64,000 nt of DNA from a virus: positions 1-64,000 of the IMG/VR virus record IMGVR_UViG_3300028025_003274; one strand, 5' to 3'. A model generated the notes under the pieces. That model was not told the origin of the DNA. It searched no databases and saw only the letters and a program-made list of their open reading frames with translations. Both the position numbers and the translations under genes were made by a program. Within the stretch, counting starts at the first letter, position 1. Each line of letters starts with the position of its first letter. Shown piece after piece: positions 6,079-53,809 of the stretch.

Positions 6079-8325
6079 ATGACAGAACAAATTCTTTCTG
6101 CTGGAGTATACTCCTACGAAAATGACCAGAGTTTTTTTACTCAAGGCACGAATGAGACGGGTTTAGCCCTTGTAGGACCTACTGAAAAGGGTGCTGCTTT
6201 CGTTCCTACCGATGTATCTAGCTACAGTCAATACACAGCTTTATTTGGAGCAGACCCTAACGTGTCTTATCTTCCACAAACTGCTTACAACTACTTGCAA
6301 GCAGGAAATACCGTTAAAGTAACTCGTGTACTTGGTAACGGTGGGTTTGTTTACAACACTACTAGACCGTTGGTAGCTATAACAAGTGGATCTTATATCC
6401 TTACAGTACTTTATCCTACAAAGAATGACACCCCTACTGTGGGTATTTCTGGTTCCATCACAGGAACTTTTAGTGCTTTTGGTGCTAAGATGCACGGGTT
6501 TAGCGGATCGGGAGTACTTGGAACTGCATCTTTTAGTGCCTCTTTGAATCCAACATCTGCTAACTTTATTTCAAAAGTATTGGGATCAGATGAAAACTAC
6601 GCAACTAGTTCAGTATTCCCTTATTTACTTTTTAGTAACTTTATTACTGGAAGTGGCGCATTAGCTTCTACAGCTGACATTGGTGCAAAACTAGAATACC
6701 TTGCAGGTAAGTGTGAATTCTCTAGCTCTAACTCTAGCGGATACGATCATGCAATAACCCCATGGGTTAATTCAGATAGCGGTGTTCCTTTGTTTAGGTT
6801 CCACCACCGGTCTGATGGCTTCAAAACCAACAAAGACGTTAAAGTATGTATAACTAATATCTCAGCAGGAGTTACAGCAGCAGATTACTCTACCTTTAGT
6901 GTAATAGTTCGTTCATGGAATGACTCAGACAGGGCTCCTTCTATCATAGAACAATACAATAATCTAACTTTAAACCCAGACGCTCCTAACTATATTGCAA
7001 AAGCAATAGGTGACAAGTATCAGCAGTTTAATGAATTGAGTTTAAATGTACTAGAATATGGTGATTTTGTTAACGTATCTAATTACATTCGTGTAGAAGT
7101 AGCAGGTGGGGTAGCTGGAAAAGCAACTCATCCTCAATTGTATCCAAATGGACACGCTGCATTGTATGAAACTATAACAGGATTTACCAATAGGAATATA
7201 CCATCAGCATCCATGGTTCAAAGCACAGCATCAAGCGCAACATTCTCAGGATTTGACTATGCAAATGCTGACAACTACAACTATCTTAATCCAATACCTA
7301 CTAACGCAGGTAATGGTCTGAACTTAGTATTTACTAAGCCAGCAGGTGATAACAAGTTTGTTCTTCCTTTCCAAGGTGGTACAGACGGTGTAAACTACAC
7401 AGTAATCAAGAAATCAGGTGCTGATATTGCACAGGGTAACTTGTTTGGATATGATTTGACTACCAGCACATCCCCTGGATCTGTTGCTTACATCAAAGCT
7501 TTGAATATCTTAGCTAATAAAGAACTTTACAACTTCGATCTAATAGTATTACCGGGTGTTCTTGAAGAATTACACTCAGGAGTAACAGCTATAGCTGAAA
7601 ACATAGCAGAAGAGCGCACAGATTGTGTATATCTTCGTGACTTGACTACCCTCAATGCCTCTGTGGTAACAGCTATAACCACAGCAGCTGGTCTTGATTC
7701 TAGCTACAGTGCTGCTTATTTCCCTTGGATTAAGGTTCGCAGTATCGGTAGCTCTAAAGACATCTACGTTCCACCAACAGTATTGGTTCCACAAGCATAT
7801 GCCTACAATGATAAGGTAGCTGCCGAATGGTTCGCTCCTGCAGGTTTGAATCGTGGTGGCCTTGGTGGTGCAATCGACACTCGTATCCGTCTTACTAAGG
7901 CTGATAGAGACGCTCTTTACAATGGTAGGGTTAACCCAATCGCTAAATTCCAGAACACTGGAGTAGTAATATGGGGTCAGAAGACTCTTCAAGTTAGAGA
8001 CACAGCTCTTAACCGCATCAATGTACGTAGGTTGTTAATCAATCTCCGTGAATACATTAGTGGTGTAGCTCTCAACTACGTGTTCGAGAACAACACTGCA
8101 GCTACTAGGAACAGGTTGATCTCTGCTATCACCCCATACATGGAGAATGTACAGTCTCGTCAAGGTCTGTATGCCTTCAGAATTGATATCAGCGACTCAT
8201 TGAACACTAACGATGTAATCGATCGTAACCAGCTTGTAGGTAAGATCTACGTATCTCCTGTCAAGTCTATCGAATTCATCTTGTTGGAATTCAACATCAC
8301 AGGTACTGGAGTAAGTTTTGAATAA
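6079..8325 (+). CDS. Tail sheath protein (T4 gp18-like)
   Basis: The 748-residue protein has the N-terminal pattern of contractile sheaths, with a first strand reading ILSAGVYSYENDQS, followed by GLALVGPTEKG and the YLPQTAYNYLQAGN segment. The C-terminal third carries the conserved sheath core: NDKVAAEWFAPAGLNRGG, a TRIRLTKADRDALY stretch, VVIWGQKTLQ and the RRLLINLREYI helix. Sheath subunits polymerise around the tail tube and contract at infection. It is longer than T4 gp18 (659 residues), probably through a larger variable surface domain in residues 90-400. The tube gene follows at once, as expected. Confidence 0.93.
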   Translation: MTEQILSAGVYSYENDQSFFTQGTNETGLALVGPTEKGAAFVPTDVSSYSQYTALFGADPNVSYLPQTAYNYLQAGNTVKVTRVLGNGGFVYNTTRPLVAITSGSYILTVLYPTKNDTPTVGISGSITGTFSAFGAKMHGFSGSGVLGTASFSASLNPTSANFISKVLGSDENYATSSVFPYLLFSNFITGSGALASTADIGAKLEYLAGKCEFSSSNSSGYDHAITPWVNSDSGVPLFRFHHRSDGFKTNKDVKVCITNISAGVTAADYSTFSVIVRSWNDSDRAPSIIEQYNNLTLNPDAPNYIAKAIGDKYQQFNELSLNVLEYGDFVNVSNYIRVEVAGGVAGKATHPQLYPNGHAALYETITGFTNRNIPSASMVQSTASSATFSGFDYANADNYNYLNPIPTNAGNGLNLVFTKPAGDNKFVLPFQGGTDGVNYTVIKKSGADIAQGNLFGYDLTTSTSPGSVAYIKALNILANKELYNFDLIVLPGVLEELHSGVTAIAENIAEERTDCVYLRDLTTLNASVVTAITTAAGLDSSYSAAYFPWIKVRSIGSSKDIYVPPTVLVPQAYAYNDKVAAEWFAPAGLNRGGLGGAIDTRIRLTKADRDALYNGRVNPIAKFQNTGVVIWGQKTLQVRDTALNRINVRRLLINLREYISGVALNYVFENNTAATRNRLISAITPYMENVQSRQGLYAFRIDISDSLNTNDVIDRNQLVGKIYVSPVKSIEFILLEFNITGTGVSFE

Positions 8326-8328
8326 TCA

Positions 8329-8338
8329 AATATTTATA
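8329..8338 (+). promoter_or_regulatory. Phage-type promoter motif AATATTTATA before tail tube
   Basis: The motif lies 20 bases before the tail tube ATG in the 33-base gap after the sheath gene, so the tube can be made from its own, more abundant message. Confidence 0.4.
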
Positions 8339-8358
8339 ATAGAATAAAATAACATAAA

Positions 8359-8847
8359 ATGGCATTACTTAGTACAGATGAGATGTTGGGTACCTTGTTC
8401 GAGCCCATGCTGCAACACAGGTTTATCATGTATATCGATGGTATCCCTTCATACTTGATTAAAAAAGTAGGCGGTATAGGATACGATGACGGTGAGGTAA
8501 TCATAGATCATATCAATAGCTACGTTAAATTCCGTGCAAAGCGCAGGTGGAATGACGTTACCCTTAGCCTTTATAACCCAGTAACTCCTTCAGGTGCGCA
8601 AGCAGTAATGGAGTGGGCTCGTCTCGGATATGAGACAGTAACTGGTAGGGCTGGATACGGTGACTTCTACTGGAAGGATATCACTTTCAATGCGATAGAT
8701 CCTGTAGGTAACGTAGTTAATGAGTGGGTGATTAAGAAGGCCTTCATTAGGAGCGTAAGTTCTTTTGGAGACTGGGATTGGTCAGCTGATGCTTACACTA
8801 CAATTGAAATGACCCTAGGAAATTCAGGGATGATCTTGAACTTCTAG
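8359..8847 (+). CDS. Tail tube protein (T4 gp19-like)
   Basis: The 162-residue protein is the size of T4 gp19 (163 residues) and follows the sheath gene. It shows the usual tube start (a short helix, then HRFIMYIDGIPSYLIKKVG), a central RRWNDVTLSLYNPVTPSGA strand pair and a final SVSSFGDWDWSADAYTTIEMTL beta hairpin region. It polymerises into the inner tube through which DNA leaves the particle. A strong terminator follows. Confidence 0.92.
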   Translation: MALLSTDEMLGTLFEPMLQHRFIMYIDGIPSYLIKKVGGIGYDDGEVIIDHINSYVKFRAKRRWNDVTLSLYNPVTPSGAQAVMEWARLGYETVTGRAGYGDFYWKDITFNAIDPVGNVVNEWVIKKAFIRSVSSFGDWDWSADAYTTIEMTLGNSGMILNF

Positions 8848-8864
8848 ATCTATAAACTATCAAG

Positions 8865-8900
8865 AAAGCCCGTATCATAGCAATATGACGGGCTTTTTTT
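8865..8900 (+). terminator. Intrinsic terminator after tail tube gene
   Basis: AAAGCCCGT (8865-8873) pairs with ACGGGCTTT (8888-8896) and is followed by a run of T. It lies 18 bases past the tail tube stop. Confidence 0.85.
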
Positions 8901-8911
8901 ATCTCTATAAT

Positions 8912-9505
8912 ATGAAAACAGCAGCCTCAAATTTTATAGAACACGTTAAATCAGAGTGCGAACACTACCATATCAAGTGTGATTTGAGGGATACTACATA
9001 TGTAAAGGTATCAGATTCAATAAAAGCCTCAGGGTACTTCGATGAATCAGTTCCTACCTTAGTATGTTCTATGAAACGTAAGGATAGCATAGAGATACTG
9101 GCCCATGAGTACGGACATTTGACTCAGTGGGTAGATAACATACCCCTGTGGAAGACTGTGGAATATAGTATGCCAAAGTTAGATGCCTGGCTAGGAGGTG
9201 AAGAAGTTCCAGATATAGAAGAACATATTTCAAACTGTAGAGATTTAGAACTAGATAATGAAAAACGCACAATTAACATTATAAAGAAGTTCAAACTACC
9301 TATAGACTTAGGAAACTACAGGAAGAAAGCCAACAGCTATGTTATGTTTTACAACTATATGCTTATTTCTAGAAGGTGGTGTACTCCGGAAAACAGTCCA
9401 TACGGTAATAAAAGGATTATAGAGGCTATGCCAAATAGATTTAATATGAATTATACCAAGCTTCCTAAAAGATTAGAGAGGATTTTTACAGAAGAAGGTT
9501 TCTAA
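8912..9505 (+). CDS. Putative zinc metallopeptidase (HExxH)
   Basis: The frame is open from an ATG at 8885, but that ATG lies in the 3' arm of the terminator, so ATG 8912 is preferred, giving 197 residues. The protein has the zincin motif HEYGH at about residues 65-69, in a helix following a KRKDSIEILAHE segment, and the hydrophobic flank expected for a zinc peptidase. No signal peptide is seen, so it would act in the cytoplasm or in the virion. Lying within the tail module, it may process a structural protein. The third zinc ligand could not be assigned. Confidence 0.6.
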   Translation: MKTAASNFIEHVKSECEHYHIKCDLRDTTYVKVSDSIKASGYFDESVPTLVCSMKRKDSIEILAHEYGHLTQWVDNIPLWKTVEYSMPKLDAWLGGEEVPDIEEHISNCRDLELDNEKRTINIIKKFKLPIDLGNYRKKANSYVMFYNYMLISRRWCTPENSPYGNKRIIEAMPNRFNMNYTKLPKRLERIFTEEGF

Positions 9506-9509
9506 TATT

Positions 9510-9539
9510 GATATTTATACCGTATATTTGATATTTATA
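9510..9539 (+). promoter_or_regulatory. Two phage-type promoter motifs flanking a TATATTTG
   Basis: GATATTTATA occurs at 9510-9519 and again at 9530-9539, with a host-like TATATTTG (9523-9530) between. They lie 20-49 bases before the ATG at 9559. Confidence 0.45.
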
Positions 9540-9558
9540 TACACAAATTGTATTAAAA

Positions 9559-10578
9559 ATGAAGCAAACTCAAAAGCTTGACTCACTTATTAACAGGATA
9601 ATTAAAGAAGAGTTAGGAAATATAAAGGGTATTAGTGAAGATAGCAAAAAAAAGTTATATCAAAATCCTGAAATGGAAGATGAAGATGGTATTCATTATC
9701 TAGGCAGCGATGATGAGCATGATTATTATTACGATGAAACAGGAGGAGATAATGGAGGTACATTTTTGGCACAGTTTGATAATGGCGTAGGCCAACACCA
9801 ATCAGGGTTTCATGCCGCATATTCTAAGCGTTTGGGGTTAAACAAGGCATTAAAGATGGCTTATGATCAAAAGCTTCTTACAGCCAAAGATAAAAAAAGA
9901 CTTAAACAAATAGAATTAGAAAGACGTAGGCAAGGTGTGATAAAAGACGAAGATGATATATTCACTTTACCAGATGATATAAAAGAAGAAGAGAAAGAAT
10001 ATGTAACTCCAGATGGTACCTCAGCTAGCGCTAATGCTGATCAAATAGCATCTGCAACAAAAGCTAGACCAGGAACTATTGTTAAGTATAGAAAAGCCGG
10101 AGTTAAACCTATGAAAGAAAACGAAAAAGAAATGCAAGAACTAGATATGGAACAACAACCAACCGGTACAGAAATAGCTGGACAAGTAGCAGAGATAGTA
10201 GAAAAGCTAAAAGCAATGTCAGAAGTATCTGAAGATCCTAAGAAGCAAAAGCATGTTGTTAAGGTAATGAAGTATATGGAATCTGCTAAGGCTGCATTAG
10301 AGGCTCTTACAGCGCATGAAACAATGCTTGAAGAGAAAGACCAAGAACAACAAACAAAAGCGGCTGAGAAGCACAAGAAGAACATAGAGAAGATCTTCAA
10401 AAGTATTGTTAAGGATGAAAACATTGTTAATAGACTTAAAGACAAGCTAACCCCTAAAGACATTGCTGATTTGACAAAAAAGTTAAAAGACAAAGGAAAA
10501 GAGCTTGACGAAGAGAAACTTGCACGAATAGTGCTAAATCGTTCTTTGAAAGAAGGCTGGGAAGTAAAAAAAAAGTAG
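9559..10578 (+). CDS. Charged helical virion-type protein, upstream part of a possible frameshift pair
   Basis: The 339-residue product opens with LDSLINRIIKEELGN, like the short N-terminal helix (RxIIxEEL) of many T4-like phage structural proteins. An acidic, Tyr/Asp-rich part (residues 35-60) is followed by long Lys/Glu helices to the end. The frame ends GTA AAA AAA AAG TAG. The A AAA AAG heptamer at 10569-10575 is a classic -1 slippery site, and the -1 frame stays open for 246 more codons. A full-length fusion of about 585 residues is therefore likely, either by programmed frameshifting or because the A-run length is misread. Family not recognised. Confidence 0.7.
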   Translation: MKQTQKLDSLINRIIKEELGNIKGISEDSKKKLYQNPEMEDEDGIHYLGSDDEHDYYYDETGGDNGGTFLAQFDNGVGQHQSGFHAAYSKRLGLNKALKMAYDQKLLTAKDKKRLKQIELERRRQGVIKDEDDIFTLPDDIKEEEKEYVTPDGTSASANADQIASATKARPGTIVKYRKAGVKPMKENEKEMQELDMEQQPTGTEIAGQVAEIVEKLKAMSEVSEDPKKQKHVVKVMKYMESAKAALEALTAHETMLEEKDQEQQTKAAEKHKKNIEKIFKSIVKDENIVNRLKDKLTPKDIADLTKKLKDKGKELDEEKLARIVLNRSLKEGWEVKKK

Positions 10579-43985: not shown

Positions 43986-44694
43986 TCTATCTATAGGCAT
44001 CCTTACGTGGAATGCACACAGTACTCTTAAGAATACTTTAGAAAGTTATAAATTATCTGGGTTACTAGACATGGTAAACGATGTCTGTATTTTCGCACAA
44101 GAAGGAAAAGAATTAGATTACAAAATAGCATCTGACTATGGTACGGATATAATAATGAGTCCTACCAACGTAGGTATAGGAAAGGGTTTAAGTACTTTAG
44201 CACACGCAGCAGAGACTGATAATATATTACTTCTAGAGAATGATTGGATTATTCTGCCTGAACTTTTTCCTGTCGTATACAGTGAGGTATTTAAAGGACT
44301 GTATATGGTAGAACAAAAAAAGGCAGACGTAGTTAAATTTAGGAGTAGAAGAGCTCCAGGAGATCCTTTATACACTTTGCAATTCGCAAATTGCGAAATG
44401 ACTAGCCCTAAGCATTTGTTTGAGTGTGTTCATTGGAGAGAAAATCCAGACCAAGATTTCCCTGAATACATTAGTAAAGATCCAGAAACAGGACTGTACT
44501 ATGCTAAAGCAAAGTACGCTAACCAAACTAACAATCCTTGTATTTATAATAAAGAGTTCTATATTAAAACCATATCACCATTTTCCGGAGAGGGTAATGA
44601 ACTAGAGGGTAAGATAGATGGATGGTGGCAAGAACAGGATATCACAGTTGCGCATGGAGAAGGATTGTTTACACATTACAGACTTGATAGATGA
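43972..44694 (+). CDS. Glycosyltransferase-like protein (GT-A fold)
   Basis: The 240-residue protein opens LNLSIGILTWNAHSTLKNTLESY, a GT2-like start, and has LLLENDWIILPE as the metal-binding strand, where END replaces DxD. A GWWQEQDITVAHGEGLF segment near the end holds acidic and His residues. It overlaps the nuclease gene by 4 bases. Confidence 0.7.
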   Translation: MTKLNLSIGILTWNAHSTLKNTLESYKLSGLLDMVNDVCIFAQEGKELDYKIASDYGTDIIMSPTNVGIGKGLSTLAHAAETDNILLLENDWIILPELFPVVYSEVFKGLYMVEQKKADVVKFRSRRAPGDPLYTLQFANCEMTSPKHLFECVHWRENPDQDFPEYISKDPETGLYYAKAKYANQTNNPCIYNKEFYIKTISPFSGEGNELEGKIDGWWQEQDITVAHGEGLFTHYRLDR

Positions 44695-45323
44695 AACAAA
44701 TAACGCTTGCTACTTTATTAGTAATTTTAAGTATTACCGCATTTACACAGCACACAGTATTGCTAAAGCATAAACAATACGAAACCAATTTTGATACGTC
44801 TTTAAAGTATCCTAAAAAAGTTTATTGGGTAGTAACTAAGAAATCATTAACTTGCGTTACCAAGTATCCAAGATCTAATAGATTTGTATCTGACCCTTTA
44901 CTGCCTAAACAGACTGATCTAGATAAAGATTATGTGAGGTCTGGGTATGATAGAGGCCATAATTTTACAGCGGCTGATGCTGCTTGTGATTCCACATCTA
45001 TGAGAGAATCTTTTTTCTTTTCTAATATGACACCCCAACACCCTACAGTAAATAGGGGAGACTGGAAACAACTAGAAGAGTTTACAAGAGAACTATCTCT
45101 AAAGCATGACTCAGTAAAAGTATGGTCAGGATCTTGGGGAGTTCAAAGTAAGATAGGAAGAGTTACAGTACCAACCGATTGTTGGAAAGTTATTTATATA
45201 GTTAGTAGTAAAGAGTGGATGGCATTTCATTTCTTTAATACAAGGTCTGGTACTTTAGGATTAAAAGCCCACGAGGTATCTTTAGACTTCATAGAAAAGC
45301 AAACAGGTTATAAATTTAAATAA
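44691..45323 (+). CDS. Secreted-type DNA/RNA non-specific endonuclease (NUC1, beta-beta-alpha-Me)
   Basis: The 210-residue protein starts with a lipophilic signal peptide (about residues 1-19, ITLATLLVILSITAF). The NUC1 motif D87-R-G-H90 in YDRGHNFTAADAA, followed by FFFSNMTPQHPTVNRGDWKQLE with the metal Asn and Glu, marks the Serratia NucA family. Such enzymes cut DNA and RNA in the periplasm or outside the cell. It is an odd member of a glycosyltransferase operon; it might destroy DNA in the periplasm or block other phages. Confidence 0.85.
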   Translation: MKQITLATLLVILSITAFTQHTVLLKHKQYETNFDTSLKYPKKVYWVVTKKSLTCVTKYPRSNRFVSDPLLPKQTDLDKDYVRSGYDRGHNFTAADAACDSTSMRESFFFSNMTPQHPTVNRGDWKQLEEFTRELSLKHDSVKVWSGSWGVQSKIGRVTVPTDCWKVIYIVSSKEWMAFHFFNTRSGTLGLKAHEVSLDFIEKQTGYKFK

Positions 45324-47017: not shown

Positions 47018-47809
47018 GTGAGAAACTTAATTAATTTACTACTAGAAGCCCCCATGGACGATGCTACAGCACAGAAGATGCTATCTTCTGGTAAGCAAGT
47101 GTCTATATACTATCAAGGGGATAACGATTCCAAAAAAGGCTGGAGAAAGATAGAACCTGTTCGCATAGAAGGCGAAGGGGATGATAAGGCCATGGTAGCC
47201 TATGAGATAGAAGGGTTAGGTAAGAAGCCAGTCCTCAAAAAGTATGTACAGAAGAAGATTACCAACTGGAACGTACTGAGTACAACCCCTGCTACTATAG
47301 CTGCTAAGGAGAAAGAGAAAGAAAAGAAGGCACCAAAAAAGCCTGGAGCTAAGCCTCCCACCCCACAAAAAAGAAGTTTAGGTACTCAAGGAGATGACTT
47401 CTGTGATGCAATAACTAACAAAAGGATAGTTAAGATGTATTATAAAGGAGACGAAGAAGAAGCTCCTGGATGGCGTACAGATGTGCAGGCCGTGTGTTAT
47501 GGATCTCGTAAAGGAGTTAAGTATGTCAGGGCTTGGGTAGGCGCAGGTAAATCAGTAAGTGCAGACAAAAGTCCAGAAAAGAAAGCATTACCAGGGTGGA
47601 GGTTTTTCCGTCAAGACAGAATACAGAAGTGGGAAGTAGATGCTACTAAAACATTTAAAGCACCTCCTAAGGCAGACTTTAATCCTAAAGGAGATAAACT
47701 TATGGATACCGTATTCTGTATATCAGACTTTGCACCAGACGCACCACCAACAGGATTGCAAGAAGCTACTATGCTATCAGCAATAAAGGAGGCTATCAAT
47801 ATTTTTTAA
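47018..47809 (+). CDS. Two-domain protein with repeated WYL/SH3-like unit
   Basis: The start is GTG 47018; ATG 47014 is out of frame and stops after six codons. The 263-residue protein opens with a short LINLLLEAP helix, then has two related units: residues about 20-90 (VSIYYQGDNDSKKGWRKIEP) and 125-210 (VKMYYKGDEEEAPGWRTDV). Both read xxxYYxGDxxxxxGWRxxxx and resemble the SH3-like beta barrel of WYL domains. A Lys/Pro-rich linker joins them. Function is unknown; ligand or nucleic acid binding is possible. Confidence 0.6.
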   Translation: MRNLINLLLEAPMDDATAQKMLSSGKQVSIYYQGDNDSKKGWRKIEPVRIEGEGDDKAMVAYEIEGLGKKPVLKKYVQKKITNWNVLSTTPATIAAKEKEKEKKAPKKPGAKPPTPQKRSLGTQGDDFCDAITNKRIVKMYYKGDEEEAPGWRTDVQAVCYGSRKGVKYVRAWVGAGKSVSADKSPEKKALPGWRFFRQDRIQKWEVDATKTFKAPPKADFNPKGDKLMDTVFCISDFAPDAPPTGLQEATMLSAIKEAINIF

Positions 47810-50476: not shown

Positions 50477-50638
50477 ATGTGTCCTATATGTATAACAACT
50501 ATGGTTCTTAATGGTCTATTCTGGTTAGCAGGATCACTAGGATTATTAAAGGCAGTTAGTTATGTAAAAAAAAGATACTATCTCTGGAGTAGTAAAAAAT
50601 GCAAAAAGTGCAGAGATAGAGAATGTTCTTCTGAATAA
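50477..50638 (+). CDS. Small Cys-rich membrane protein
   Basis: This 53-residue gene lies between the terminator and the 50690 gene. The N-terminus carries CPIC, then a hydrophobic helix (about residues 9-30, VLNGLFWLAGSLGLLKAVSYV), then a basic CKKCRDREC tail. The Cys pairs could bind a metal on the cytoplasmic side. It opens the cluster of small membrane proteins. No family is recognised. Confidence 0.6.
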   Translation: MCPICITTMVLNGLFWLAGSLGLLKAVSYVKKRYYLWSSKKCKKCRDRECSSE

Positions 50639-50650
50639 ATTAGTGTTTTG

Positions 50651-50687
50651 TAATAATAGGTTTCGGTTTATTAAAACCTTATTATTA
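50651..50687 (+). promoter_or_regulatory. Long hairpin just upstream of a start codon
   Basis: TAATAATAGGTTT (50651-50663) pairs with AAACC and TATTATTA (50674-50687), with one bulged T, and the stem ends 2 bases before ATG 50690. It could block the start codon of the holin-like gene or protect the mRNA end. No T tract follows, so it is not a terminator. Confidence 0.55.
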
Positions 50688-50689
50688 TT

Positions 50690-50947
50690 ATGAAAAAATT
50701 TCTCTCTCAATTGTTTAATGACAAGAATACTATTAACGAAAAAAGTTTTATTGGATTTTGTGCGTTCCTAATGATGGTAGTGTTTGCTATTGCAGATATT
50801 ATAACAGGGTCTTTAGGCAAAGAGCTTATTATTCAAGACTTTATATTTAATTCTTTCTTATGGATGACTTTAGGATGTTTTGGTATAGCATCCGTAGATA
50901 AGTTTATAAATAAGAAAAACGAAACCAATAACGAAGAACAATTATAA
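50690..50947 (+). CDS. Holin-like two-helix membrane protein
   Basis: The 85-residue protein has two hydrophobic helices, about residues 20-41 (FIGFCAFLMMVVFAIADIITG) and 52-70 (FIFNSFLWMTLGCFGIASV), with a Lys/Asn/Glu-rich C-terminus (KFINKKNETNNEEQ). Size and layout are those of class II holins. A hairpin ends right before its start codon. Lysis is an inference; no endolysin gene was found nearby. Confidence 0.55.
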   Translation: MKKFLSQLFNDKNTINEKSFIGFCAFLMMVVFAIADIITGSLGKELIIQDFIFNSFLWMTLGCFGIASVDKFINKKNETNNEEQL

Positions 50948-50958
50948 AAAACAAATAA

Positions 50959-51216
50959 ATGAAAAAAGTACCAGTAAACAAATTGATCTCCCTGATTAAC
51001 GCAGTAAAAGGAAAAAAGCCAGTGGTAATCATAGCTTCTGTAGTCGCCATTGCTGCAGCTATATTTGCAATAAGTAAAGGCTATATATCAGAAGATATGT
51101 TAAATGTAGACGCTGTAGTTAGTTTTATAGAGGACGCTGTTAGTAAAGAAGCCGAAGTAAATGTTATTGATACTGTGGCTACACAAGTTGTAGTTGATAG
51201 TGTAATAACTCAATAA
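50959..51216 (+). CDS. Small single-pass membrane protein
   Basis: The 85-residue protein has a basic N-terminus, one hydrophobic helix (about residues 21-40, VVIIASVVAIAAAIFAISKG) and an acidic, beta-prone C-terminal part ending VVVDSVITQ. Its stop touches the next start (TAA ATG, no gap), so it is coupled to the PAS protein. It may face the periplasm as an accessory lysis factor or partner of the PAS protein. No family is recognised. Confidence 0.55.
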   Translation: MKKVPVNKLISLINAVKGKKPVVIIASVVAIAAAIFAISKGYISEDMLNVDAVVSFIEDAVSKEAEVNVIDTVATQVVVDSVITQ

Positions 51217-52329
51217 ATGAAGAATCTATCTAAAGAAGAACTACTTAGTAGGCTTGAAGCGATTAATCGTAGCAATGCTATCATCTATTTTGATCTAAAT
51301 GGAAAAATTTTAGGCGTTAATGCTATTTTTCTACAAGCAATGGGATATGGTGTAGATGAACATGAGGAGCTTATTGGTAAGCACCATAGTATTTTTGTAT
51401 GTGAAGATTATGCAAGGTCATTGGAGTATGAAAAGTTTTGGGATATATTAAGGAGTGGTAAATACTATCAAGGAGAATTCGAAAGAAGGAAAAGAGATGG
51501 TAGTCTTATCAACTTACAAGCAACATACAATCCTATTTACGATGAGAGTGGTACTATTACTAAAGTAATGAAAGTTGCTACTGACATTACTACGATTGTT
51601 AATAGTAAAAAACAGATAGATGCTATTAATAAGAGTACTGCAACTATTAGTTTTGATATGGATGGTTTTATTTTAGATGCCAATGCTGTGTTTTTAGAAA
51701 CAATGGGTTATAAGGCTAATGAAAAAAACCAAGTAATAGGAAAGCATCATAGTATTTTTGTAACTTATGAGTATTCAAAATCAGATGAGTATAGTAAGTT
51801 TTGGAAATCCTTAAAAAGTGGTAAGTTTTTTGATGGGATATTTGAAAGAAAAAGAGTAGATGGCTCTACTATCTATTTACAAGCCACATATAATCCAGTC
51901 TTTGACAGCAAAGGAAACGTTACAAATGTAATTAAAATTGCTACTGACGTTACTGAAGCTGTCAATAGTAAAAACAAGATAGACACTCTCTCAAAAGATT
52001 TACAGATTGAGTTAGATAACTCCAAAAAACTTAAAGACGCAATTGAAGTAGAGAAGAACGCTGCGTTAAATGATTTGGATATAGTGATGAAGAAAAGCCA
52101 ATCTGAGCTAATCAAGACGATTGTAAAAGTAGCATTAGGGGTAATTGTTGGTGTTGGATTAGTAACAACTGTACTATATTGGATGGCAATTGTTACACAG
52201 AAGGATACCCAAATAATTGGATCAACTTGGTCAAACATGTTCAGCGTATTACTGACCAATGCATTTTCAATAGTTGGAACAATTATGGGTATAAAATATG
52301 CTACTCAAGATGATAAAAATAAAAAATAA
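51217..52329 (+). CDS. Tandem PAS-domain membrane protein with C-terminal two-helix hairpin
   Basis: The 370-residue protein has two closely related PAS domains (about residues 10-125 and 134-247). Each reads GKHHSIFV, FWxxLxSGK, GxFER, DGSxIxLQATYNP, then ATDI/VT, the style of PAS units in chemoreceptors. A coiled coil (about 255-298) leads to membrane helices at about 300-325 and 341-361, joined by a 15-residue loop, with a Lys-rich end. There is no HAMP, methyl-accepting, kinase or cyclase domain, so the membrane hairpin is the likely output. Cofactor unknown; redox or oxygen sensing would be usual for PAS. It is coupled to two small membrane proteins, so a sensor-gated holin or antiholin is a reasonable hypothesis. 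Confidence 0.85.
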   Translation: MKNLSKEELLSRLEAINRSNAIIYFDLNGKILGVNAIFLQAMGYGVDEHEELIGKHHSIFVCEDYARSLEYEKFWDILRSGKYYQGEFERRKRDGSLINLQATYNPIYDESGTITKVMKVATDITTIVNSKKQIDAINKSTATISFDMDGFILDANAVFLETMGYKANEKNQVIGKHHSIFVTYEYSKSDEYSKFWKSLKSGKFFDGIFERKRVDGSTIYLQATYNPVFDSKGNVTNVIKIATDVTEAVNSKNKIDTLSKDLQIELDNSKKLKDAIEVEKNAALNDLDIVMKKSQSELIKTIVKVALGVIVGVGLVTTVLYWMAIVTQKDTQIIGSTWSNMFSVLLTNAFSIVGTIMGIKYATQDDKNKK

Positions 52330-53647: not shown

Positions 53648-53809
53648 CTACTTCTTTTTAGAAGCAATAGACCAACCAGCACCGACAAGTGTCATGATGC
53701 CTCCGAGTACTTCTTGGAATAATACGTCATCAACTAAACCTTTTGCAACGATAACGCCACCAACAAAGGTTAATGCATGTCTGATGAGTCCTAATACTTG
53801 ATCTTTCAT
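53648..53809 (-). CDS. Small holin-like protein (Pam3-gp28 type), the only minus-strand gene
   Basis: Translated from 53809 down to a TAG at 53648, this 53-residue protein begins MKDQVLGLIRHALTFVGG, has hydrophobic helices at about residues 10-25 and 34-48 (VLGGIMTLVGAGWSIAS) and ends in Lys residues. The RHALTFxGG ... TLVGAxWS pattern is that of the Pam3-gp28 family of putative phage holins. It has its own promoter motif and terminator, so it is expressed as a single unit, opposite to every other gene here. Confidence 0.75.
   Translation of the reverse strand: MKDQVLGLIRHALTFVGGVIVAKGLVDDVLFQEVLGGIMTLVGAGWSIASKKK

Follow-up and report, generated by a model that had tools for sequence, protein, structure and literature searches.

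The window, as we call the 64,000-base stretch of DNA analyzed here (taken from a virus record of 68,168 bases), encodes a 370-residue protein in which two PAS domains are followed by a coiled coil and a two-helix membrane hairpin. Judged from its relatives and their gene neighborhoods, this 51217 protein (named, like its neighbors, for the first position of its gene) is probably a signal-controlled membrane effector that sets the timing of lysis, and would represent the one-component form of a phage signaling module. A wider proposal, to which we give about even chances, is that phages use a hitherto undescribed kind of signal transduction. Its direct output would be a near-invariant hairpin encoded in the lysis cassette, fed by cytosolic PAS sensors or by a complete two-component system of the phage; through it, lytic phages of aquatic bacteria would read the redox or energy state of the host and time lysis post-translationally. 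The first-pass annotation, made from the sequence alone, had suggested among other readings that a sensor might directly drive a membrane hairpin in lysis. This is now the best reading, as relatives of the protein lie beside endolysins and holins and the hairpin is shared with other sensory inputs.

Architecture of the PAS-PAS-hairpin protein

The description of the protein as two near-copy PAS domains followed by a coiled coil and a pair of membrane helices with a short turn is borne out by Pfam, AlphaFold and hydropathy (Table 1). Pfam matches to PAS_3 (3.8e-27) and PAS_9 (2.2e-23) exceed the curated cut-off, the two PAS domains are identical at 67 of 119 positions (56%), and, as the annotation had also held, Pfam finds no kinase, MCP, cyclase or other output domain. 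The AlphaFold model (pLDDT 78.5) shows two PAS folds followed by two helices, of which the first runs unbroken over residues 246-327 and the second, after a short turn, spans 332-364; the coiled coil and the first membrane helix (TM1) thus form a single helix. Hydropathy peaks at 2.37 in helix 1 and at 1.45 in helix 2 (TM2), and the latter is only moderately hydrophobic. An N-in/C-in two-helix layout is predicted for the hairpin from hydropathy and the AlphaFold model, the TM2 peak being weak. TM2 is moderately polar and carries a G-xxx-G-xxx-A motif at residues 354-362. Its amphipathicity was considered as evidence for a pore and dropped, its hydrophobic moment being matched by a fraction of 0.17 of shuffled sequences and not standing above them.

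Table 1. Features of the PAS-hairpin gene and of the small membrane ORFs upstream (window coordinates)
Feature	Coordinates	Strand	Basis
53-aa ORF, one hydrophobic segment, doubtful gene	50477..50638	+	weak PHROG holin match, E 0.0057
Small 2-TM protein, m85a family, class-II-holin-like layout	50690..50947	+	family adjacent to hairpin gene in most loci; homologue in phage immuto
Small 1-TM protein, stop codon abuts ATG of PAS gene	50959..51216	+	only in nearest relatives
PAS-PAS-coiled coil-membrane hairpin protein, 370 aa, ATG start	51217..52329	+	Pfam, AlphaFold, IMG/VR relatives
PAS domain 1, residues ~13-131	51253..51609	+	Pfam PAS_3; AlphaFold; N35, H57, W75 invariant
PAS domain 2, residues ~133-252, 56% identical to PAS 1	51613..51972	+	Pfam; AlphaFold; N156, H178, W196 invariant
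Signaling coiled-coil helix, residues ~253-302, continuous with TM1 in model	51973..52122	+	AlphaFold helix 246-327
Membrane helix 1, residues ~303-326	52123..52194	+	hydropathy 2.37
Membrane helix 2 invariant block GSTWSNMFSVLLTNAFSIVGTIMGIKYAT, residues 335-363	52219..52305	+	63-sequence divergence comparison; core in all input classes

Three small membrane proteins had been described as preceding the sensor gene without gaps. The ORFs exist, but the absence of gaps was slightly overstated: the intervals along the run from 50477 through 50690 and 50959 to 51217 are 51, 11 and 0 bases, and the first ORF is doubtful, having no counterpart at any other locus examined; 50477-50638 may not be a gene. 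The holin layout attributed to one of the three belongs to the 50690 product, which has two transmembrane segments and resembles class II holins. Of 82 loci, at least 55 have a member of its family, m85a, next to the hairpin gene; in 34 of 51 representatives m85a lies within 1 kb, upstream in some and downstream in others. The 50959 protein recurs in 5 loci only. Directly upstream of this run of membrane genes, the window encodes a phage tmRNA (49984-50395, + strand; Rfam RF00023, 67.4 bits; ARAGORN tag DEMSTMTFDDLMAFVGADEATFA).

Family, distribution and invariance of the hairpin

Searching IMG/VR with the whole 51217 protein gave 159 relatives, the best 80 of which are full length with 78-92% identity, and searching with the hairpin alone gave 289; the family is spread over hundreds of contigs from uncultured phages. 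Records of the PAS kind and of a short form described below both include terminase genes, and the carriers are therefore phages. The sheath family PF04984 had been tried as a phage marker and was replaced by terminase, being present in 3 of 36 records only and uninformative. Among 50,697 annotated phage records the hairpin is encoded in none, although BLAST, with its low-complexity filter, may miss membrane segments that are short, and the hairpin profile has no match among 395 Bacteroidota genomes; as a positive control, the profile matches 37 of 37 phage records, exactly once per record. The first match in the phage records, H1 (MT836939), was rejected as an ordinary PAS-PAS-MCP chemoreceptor in a record lacking phage annotation, and a scan of genome contigs with the PAS pattern alone recovered ordinary PAS proteins. 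A viral predicted-structure library holds one uncharacterized 218-aa phage protein, 53% identical over 125 columns, which is probably a relative. No family of Pfam, PHROG or PADLOC accounts for the hairpin, the sole match being a weak one of the unnamed phrog_1544 to the coiled coil and hairpin (3.7e-4). Neither Pfam nor PHROG holin families match it, and hhalign comparison with the m85a and Phage_holin_4_1 clusters gave a probability of 3% or less; homology of the hairpin to m85a, Phage_holin_4_1 or other small membrane neighbors was rejected, nothing convincing having been found.

Holins normally diverge fast, and conservation as strict as that of TM2 is unusual among them. The whole architecture is retained, beyond what chance would give, in 63 distinct coding sequences of 73-92% identity and about 0.4-0.5 divergence at fourfold sites, which were drawn from the nearest 80 relatives with TM2 playing no part in their selection. 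Across these sequences the amino acid difference at residues 335-363 is 0.000; fourfold-degenerate sites within the TM2 codons differ at 0.487 (0.40-0.57 in the remainder of the gene), and the PAS domains differ by 0.16-0.19 per residue. An unranked scan, using a DNA pattern in which residues 343-356 and 359 were left free and whose matches were not ordered by similarity, yielded 75 loci, and residues 345-348, 350-352 and 354-356 are identical in essentially all of the 73 usable sequences; the W-S-N-M-F and M-G-x-K-Y flanks were fixed by the pattern and give no evidence of conservation there.

Interchangeable inputs on a common hairpin

The unranked scan separates the loci by what precedes the hairpin: 26 encode PAS-PAS proteins, 11 single-PAS proteins and 33 short forms of 180-230 aa, the remainder being cut by contig ends. 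Each phage carries one input type (a PAS pair, a single PAS domain, or a short head accompanied by a kinase and receiver), and the TM2 core is common to all of these classes. In the structure model of the short form, a head of approximately 37 residues is followed by a helix (38-158) that continues into TM1, and then by TM2. A receiver-only response regulator of approximately 145 aa lies upstream of 32 of the 33 short forms, immediately or one gene removed; the single locus with no visible receiver ends at a contig edge at that point. Of 31 cases measured, 28 have the receiver gene overlapping the hairpin gene or no more than 8 bases from it, with a spacing that is mostly -4 or -1; in the other three, one membrane gene is inserted between the two. 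The receiver gene is itself preceded by that of a histidine kinase, which has membrane segments and a sensor portion that varies (PAS, GAF or other). Matches to HATPase_c (4.4e-15) and Response_reg (1.3e-7) are above cut-off in these loci, and the residues that define a two-component pair are conserved, namely the phosphoacceptor histidine and the N and G boxes of the kinase, and the D-D-S-K residues of the receiver (D, D, S/T and K in general form).

The receiver lacks a DNA-binding domain, and translational coupling joins its gene to that of the hairpin; its most likely target is therefore the hairpin head. A receiver with a membrane hairpin as its target, in place of DNA, an enzyme or the flagellar motor, would be an output type of which we know no other example. 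The PAS-hairpin protein, in turn, looks like a one-component shortcut of the kinase-receiver pathway, because PAS domains within the kinases reach 54% identity to those of the 51217 protein.

Across the short-form loci (L170-L234; e.g. L171 100-1332, L228 4041-6176, and L216), the sensor parts of the phage kinases are highly variable, comprising PAS, GAF+PAS+PAS, periplasmic-type and secreted coiled-coil-type arrangements on a conserved kinase core and receiver. Two of these loci (L212, L231) have a DnaK-like gene (MSKIIGIDLGTTNSCVAV...) downstream of the kinase-receiver-hairpin run.

What the PAS domains might sense

The best solved sequence relatives of the phage PAS domains are MmoS, NifL and Aer, all of them FAD redox sensors, and the best fold match is the tandem PAS of MmoS. 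In Aer, H53 stacks on the flavin and W70 on the adenine, while N85 and R115 contact the ring (PMC9668731). The equivalents of Aer N34, H53 and W70 are invariant in both phage domains; the equivalent of N85 is an arginine (residues 90 and 211) and that of R115 an alanine (121 and 242), and key FAD-pocket residues of both Aer and MmoS are replaced in the phage pair. PAS pairs of the BdlA type are predicted FAD binders (PMC8694187). The phage PAS pair is likely to bind a cofactor of some kind.

Neighborhood of the hairpin gene

To describe the surroundings of the hairpin gene, neighboring genes were clustered and then named by Pfam and PHROG. The gene usually lies in a lysis cassette, with endolysins, holins and m85a for neighbors. 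The neighbors include GH19 endolysins, GH24 Phage_lysozyme proteins, Peptidase_M15_3 endopeptidases, PG_binding_1 proteins and Phage_holin_4_1 proteins. Endolysins of four unrelated types lie at most 1.5 kb from the PAS-type gene in 33 of 39 non-redundant loci with enough flank, and all 49 endolysin matches found in flanks of 6 kb on either side fall within 2 kb of the hairpin gene. The unranked sample gives a similar picture, with an endolysin within 1.5 kb in 32 of 38 PAS-type loci and 37 of 37 such matches co-directional. On the PAS-hairpin tree the endolysin type switches at least 8 times and the neighborhood persists. Another known holin family is found within 6 kb in 15 of 51 loci.

Because the endolysin profiles had been built from these neighbors, whole records were searched with an outside model, phrog_181. 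With this model, 13 of 14 PAS records have an endolysin (GH19) no more than 2 kb from the hairpin, against 0.93 expected (P ~2e-15), and 6 of 8 short-form records have one no more than 4 kb away, against 1.08 expected (P ~7e-5); the P values are optimistic, a few of the records being near copies. In kinase-type loci, an endolysin is present in the examined flank in 14 of 33 cases, and the association with lysis genes is looser for the kinase form than for the PAS form.

The cassette is also found in an isolate. Flavobacterium phage immuto carries m85a, a GH19 chitinase/endolysin and a holin in a row, in the same order as at two PAS-hairpin loci (L028 and L029) and 74%, 82% and 88% identical to their respective genes, and a 10-base junction before the endolysin is common to immuto and these loci. 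The PAS-hairpin gene is missing from this otherwise matching cassette, which marks the sensor-hairpin module as an optional add-on; the immuto cassette keeps m85a and Phage_holin_4_1.

Neither the window nor the other 4.2 kb of its record contains a recognizable endolysin of the GH19, GH24, M15 or PG-binding types. In its nearest relatives, L001 and L003, the order is GH19, m85a, (small membrane ORF), PAS-hairpin, and the endolysin of the window's phage has been lost or moved, is unrecognized, or lies outside the incomplete record.

Several further genes were observed in these regions. The window encodes a Phage_holin_10 protein of the Pam3 gp28 family (53648-53809, - strand, 3.5e-17), located 1.3 kb from the PAS gene on the opposite strand, and several PAS-hairpin loci have homologues of it nearby. 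Spanin-like lipoproteins and single-TM proteins (clusters 15, 27 and 40) lie beside the hairpin gene at L006, L035, L065, L069, L173, L203, L221 and others. A secreted DNA/RNA non-specific endonuclease is encoded at 44691-45323 of the window (Endonuclease_NS, 5.3e-40), and a similar gene precedes the GH19 endolysin by two or three genes in L001 (3573-4217) and L003. A few genes after the PAS-hairpin, L001 encodes a 749-aa protein resembling TonB-dependent outer-membrane receptors (8190-10439; Plug 4.6e-7, OMP_b-brl_3 2.4e-23), and L003 has a gene of similar size. The window further encodes a WYL-domain protein (47018-47809, 7.1e-7), a domain that is unusual in phage outside defense or conflict loci.

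Proposed mechanism and alternative explanations

In the mechanism that we propose, a change in PAS state or in receiver phosphorylation would shift the coiled coil, and this shift would pass into TM1 and move it. The invariant TM2 could then change its oligomeric state or assembly, or its contact with a holin, for which the neighboring 2-TM m85a protein or a Phage_holin_4_1 protein is the candidate partner. As a result a lesion might be opened or formed, or the holin of the cassette released or blocked, such that lysis would come earlier or later depending on the host's metabolic or redox state. Within this scheme the 51217 protein is somewhat more likely to be a regulator or trigger of the cassette holin than the hole itself, because the immuto cassette does without a PAS-hairpin gene.

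A stricter version, in which the hairpin oligomerizes through TM2 into a hole or pinhole that the PAS pair keeps closed until a signal arrives, is possible though doubtful. It would suit the two-helix N-in/C-in layout, the moderately polar TM2 with its glycine-rich motif, the position in a lysis cassette and the many loci where no other recognized holin family is nearby; yet the immuto cassette retains m85a and Phage_holin_4_1 when the PAS-hairpin gene is absent, the hairpin matches no holin family, and TM2 is conserved far above what is expected of a holin. Class II holins are small and lack a large soluble domain; the 51217 protein has 370 residues and two PAS domains. The complete invariance of TM2 would be better suited to a fixed partner than to a self-made hole, and the PAS heads resemble energy-sensing PAS domains. 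These features could indicate that the hairpin binds a strictly conserved membrane protein of a Bacteroidota-type host and blocks or redirects it, for instance to maintain the envelope or the energy state at a late stage of infection; its location among lysis genes would then reflect late expression and no role in lysis. We consider this unlikely, since shared timing alone is hard to reconcile with a tight, repeated and co-directional link to four unrelated endolysin types and to m85a.

A superinfection exclusion or defense-type membrane effector carried by the phage would have precedent in some defense systems that combine a sensor with a small membrane effector, but PADLOC matches none of the components and the location is lysis-linked rather than within a defense or moron island, which makes this reading quite improbable. 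The first-pass annotation had also raised a decoy receptor that inserts into the chemotaxis arrays of the host. Such a role would draw on the PAS domains, which are approximately 50% identical to those of PAS-PAS-MCP receptors, but we now regard it as extremely improbable: the protein has no MCP signaling domain or tip, its C-terminal helices are hydrophobic membrane segments rather than the cytoplasmic coiled-coil hairpin of a chemoreceptor, the hairpin is never joined to an MCP domain, and the cassettes place it beside cell-wall enzymes.

Comparison with known systems

Lysis timing is usually pictured as an intrinsic clock of the holin, with T4-like lysis inhibition as the main exception in which a condition is sensed. 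We found no report in the open-access literature of a holin or lysis protein controlled by PAS domains or by a two-component system, in line with the first-pass annotation, which knew of no such lysis system, and the combination of sensing, by PAS or by kinase and receiver, with a hairpin of the lysis cassette appears to be undescribed. If the proposal is true, many environmental phages would take informed lysis decisions by means of standard bacterial sensors (PAS, GAF, kinase-receiver). With its inputs exchanged on an invariant hairpin, the module is directly testable, and could be used as a synthetic sensor-to-lysis device.

Known lysis regulators offer partial parallels. In lysis inhibition by the T4 holin T with antiholins RI and RIII, and by teaA/arrA of ICP1, membrane-linked regulation shifts the timing of lysis (PMC11413866, PMC8385771, PMC7182436), and phages can in this way sense conditions (PMC7182436). 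By analogy, the role proposed for the 51217 protein would be that of a membrane-linked lysis regulator that responds to the condition of the infected cell. No sequence relation between the T4 or ICP1 proteins and the 51217 family was found, and T4 RI is a periplasmic sensor of superinfection, neither PAS nor two-component, whereas the sensor of the 51217 family is cytoplasmic-side and swappable. In mycobacteriophages, two-holin cassettes (LysF1a/LysF1b, for example) encode a holin-like protein of 88 aa with a 2-TM N-in/C-in layout, and timing is controlled by a second membrane protein (PMC13056207). The layout of m85a is the same, but the mycobacteriophage system has no sensor domain or signaling pair and involves other sequences and other hosts.

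On the sensory side, PAS-PAS-MCP receptors of the BdlA/McpS type share the tandem PAS arrangement and a G-[KR]-H-H motif (PMC8694187), with an MCP domain where the 51217 protein has a coiled coil and two membrane helices. Likewise, Aer, MmoS and NifL are the closest PDB relatives of the phage PAS domains, which keep the N/H/W equivalents, but their output is a HAMP-MCP or a kinase rather than a membrane hairpin. Phages can carry kinases, as with the AgrC of phiCDHM1, which has no response regulator (PMC3901668), and unnamed kinases also occur in uncultured phages (e.g. A0A6J5L941). In contrast to phiCDHM1, the short-form loci unite kinase, receiver and membrane effector in one gene run.
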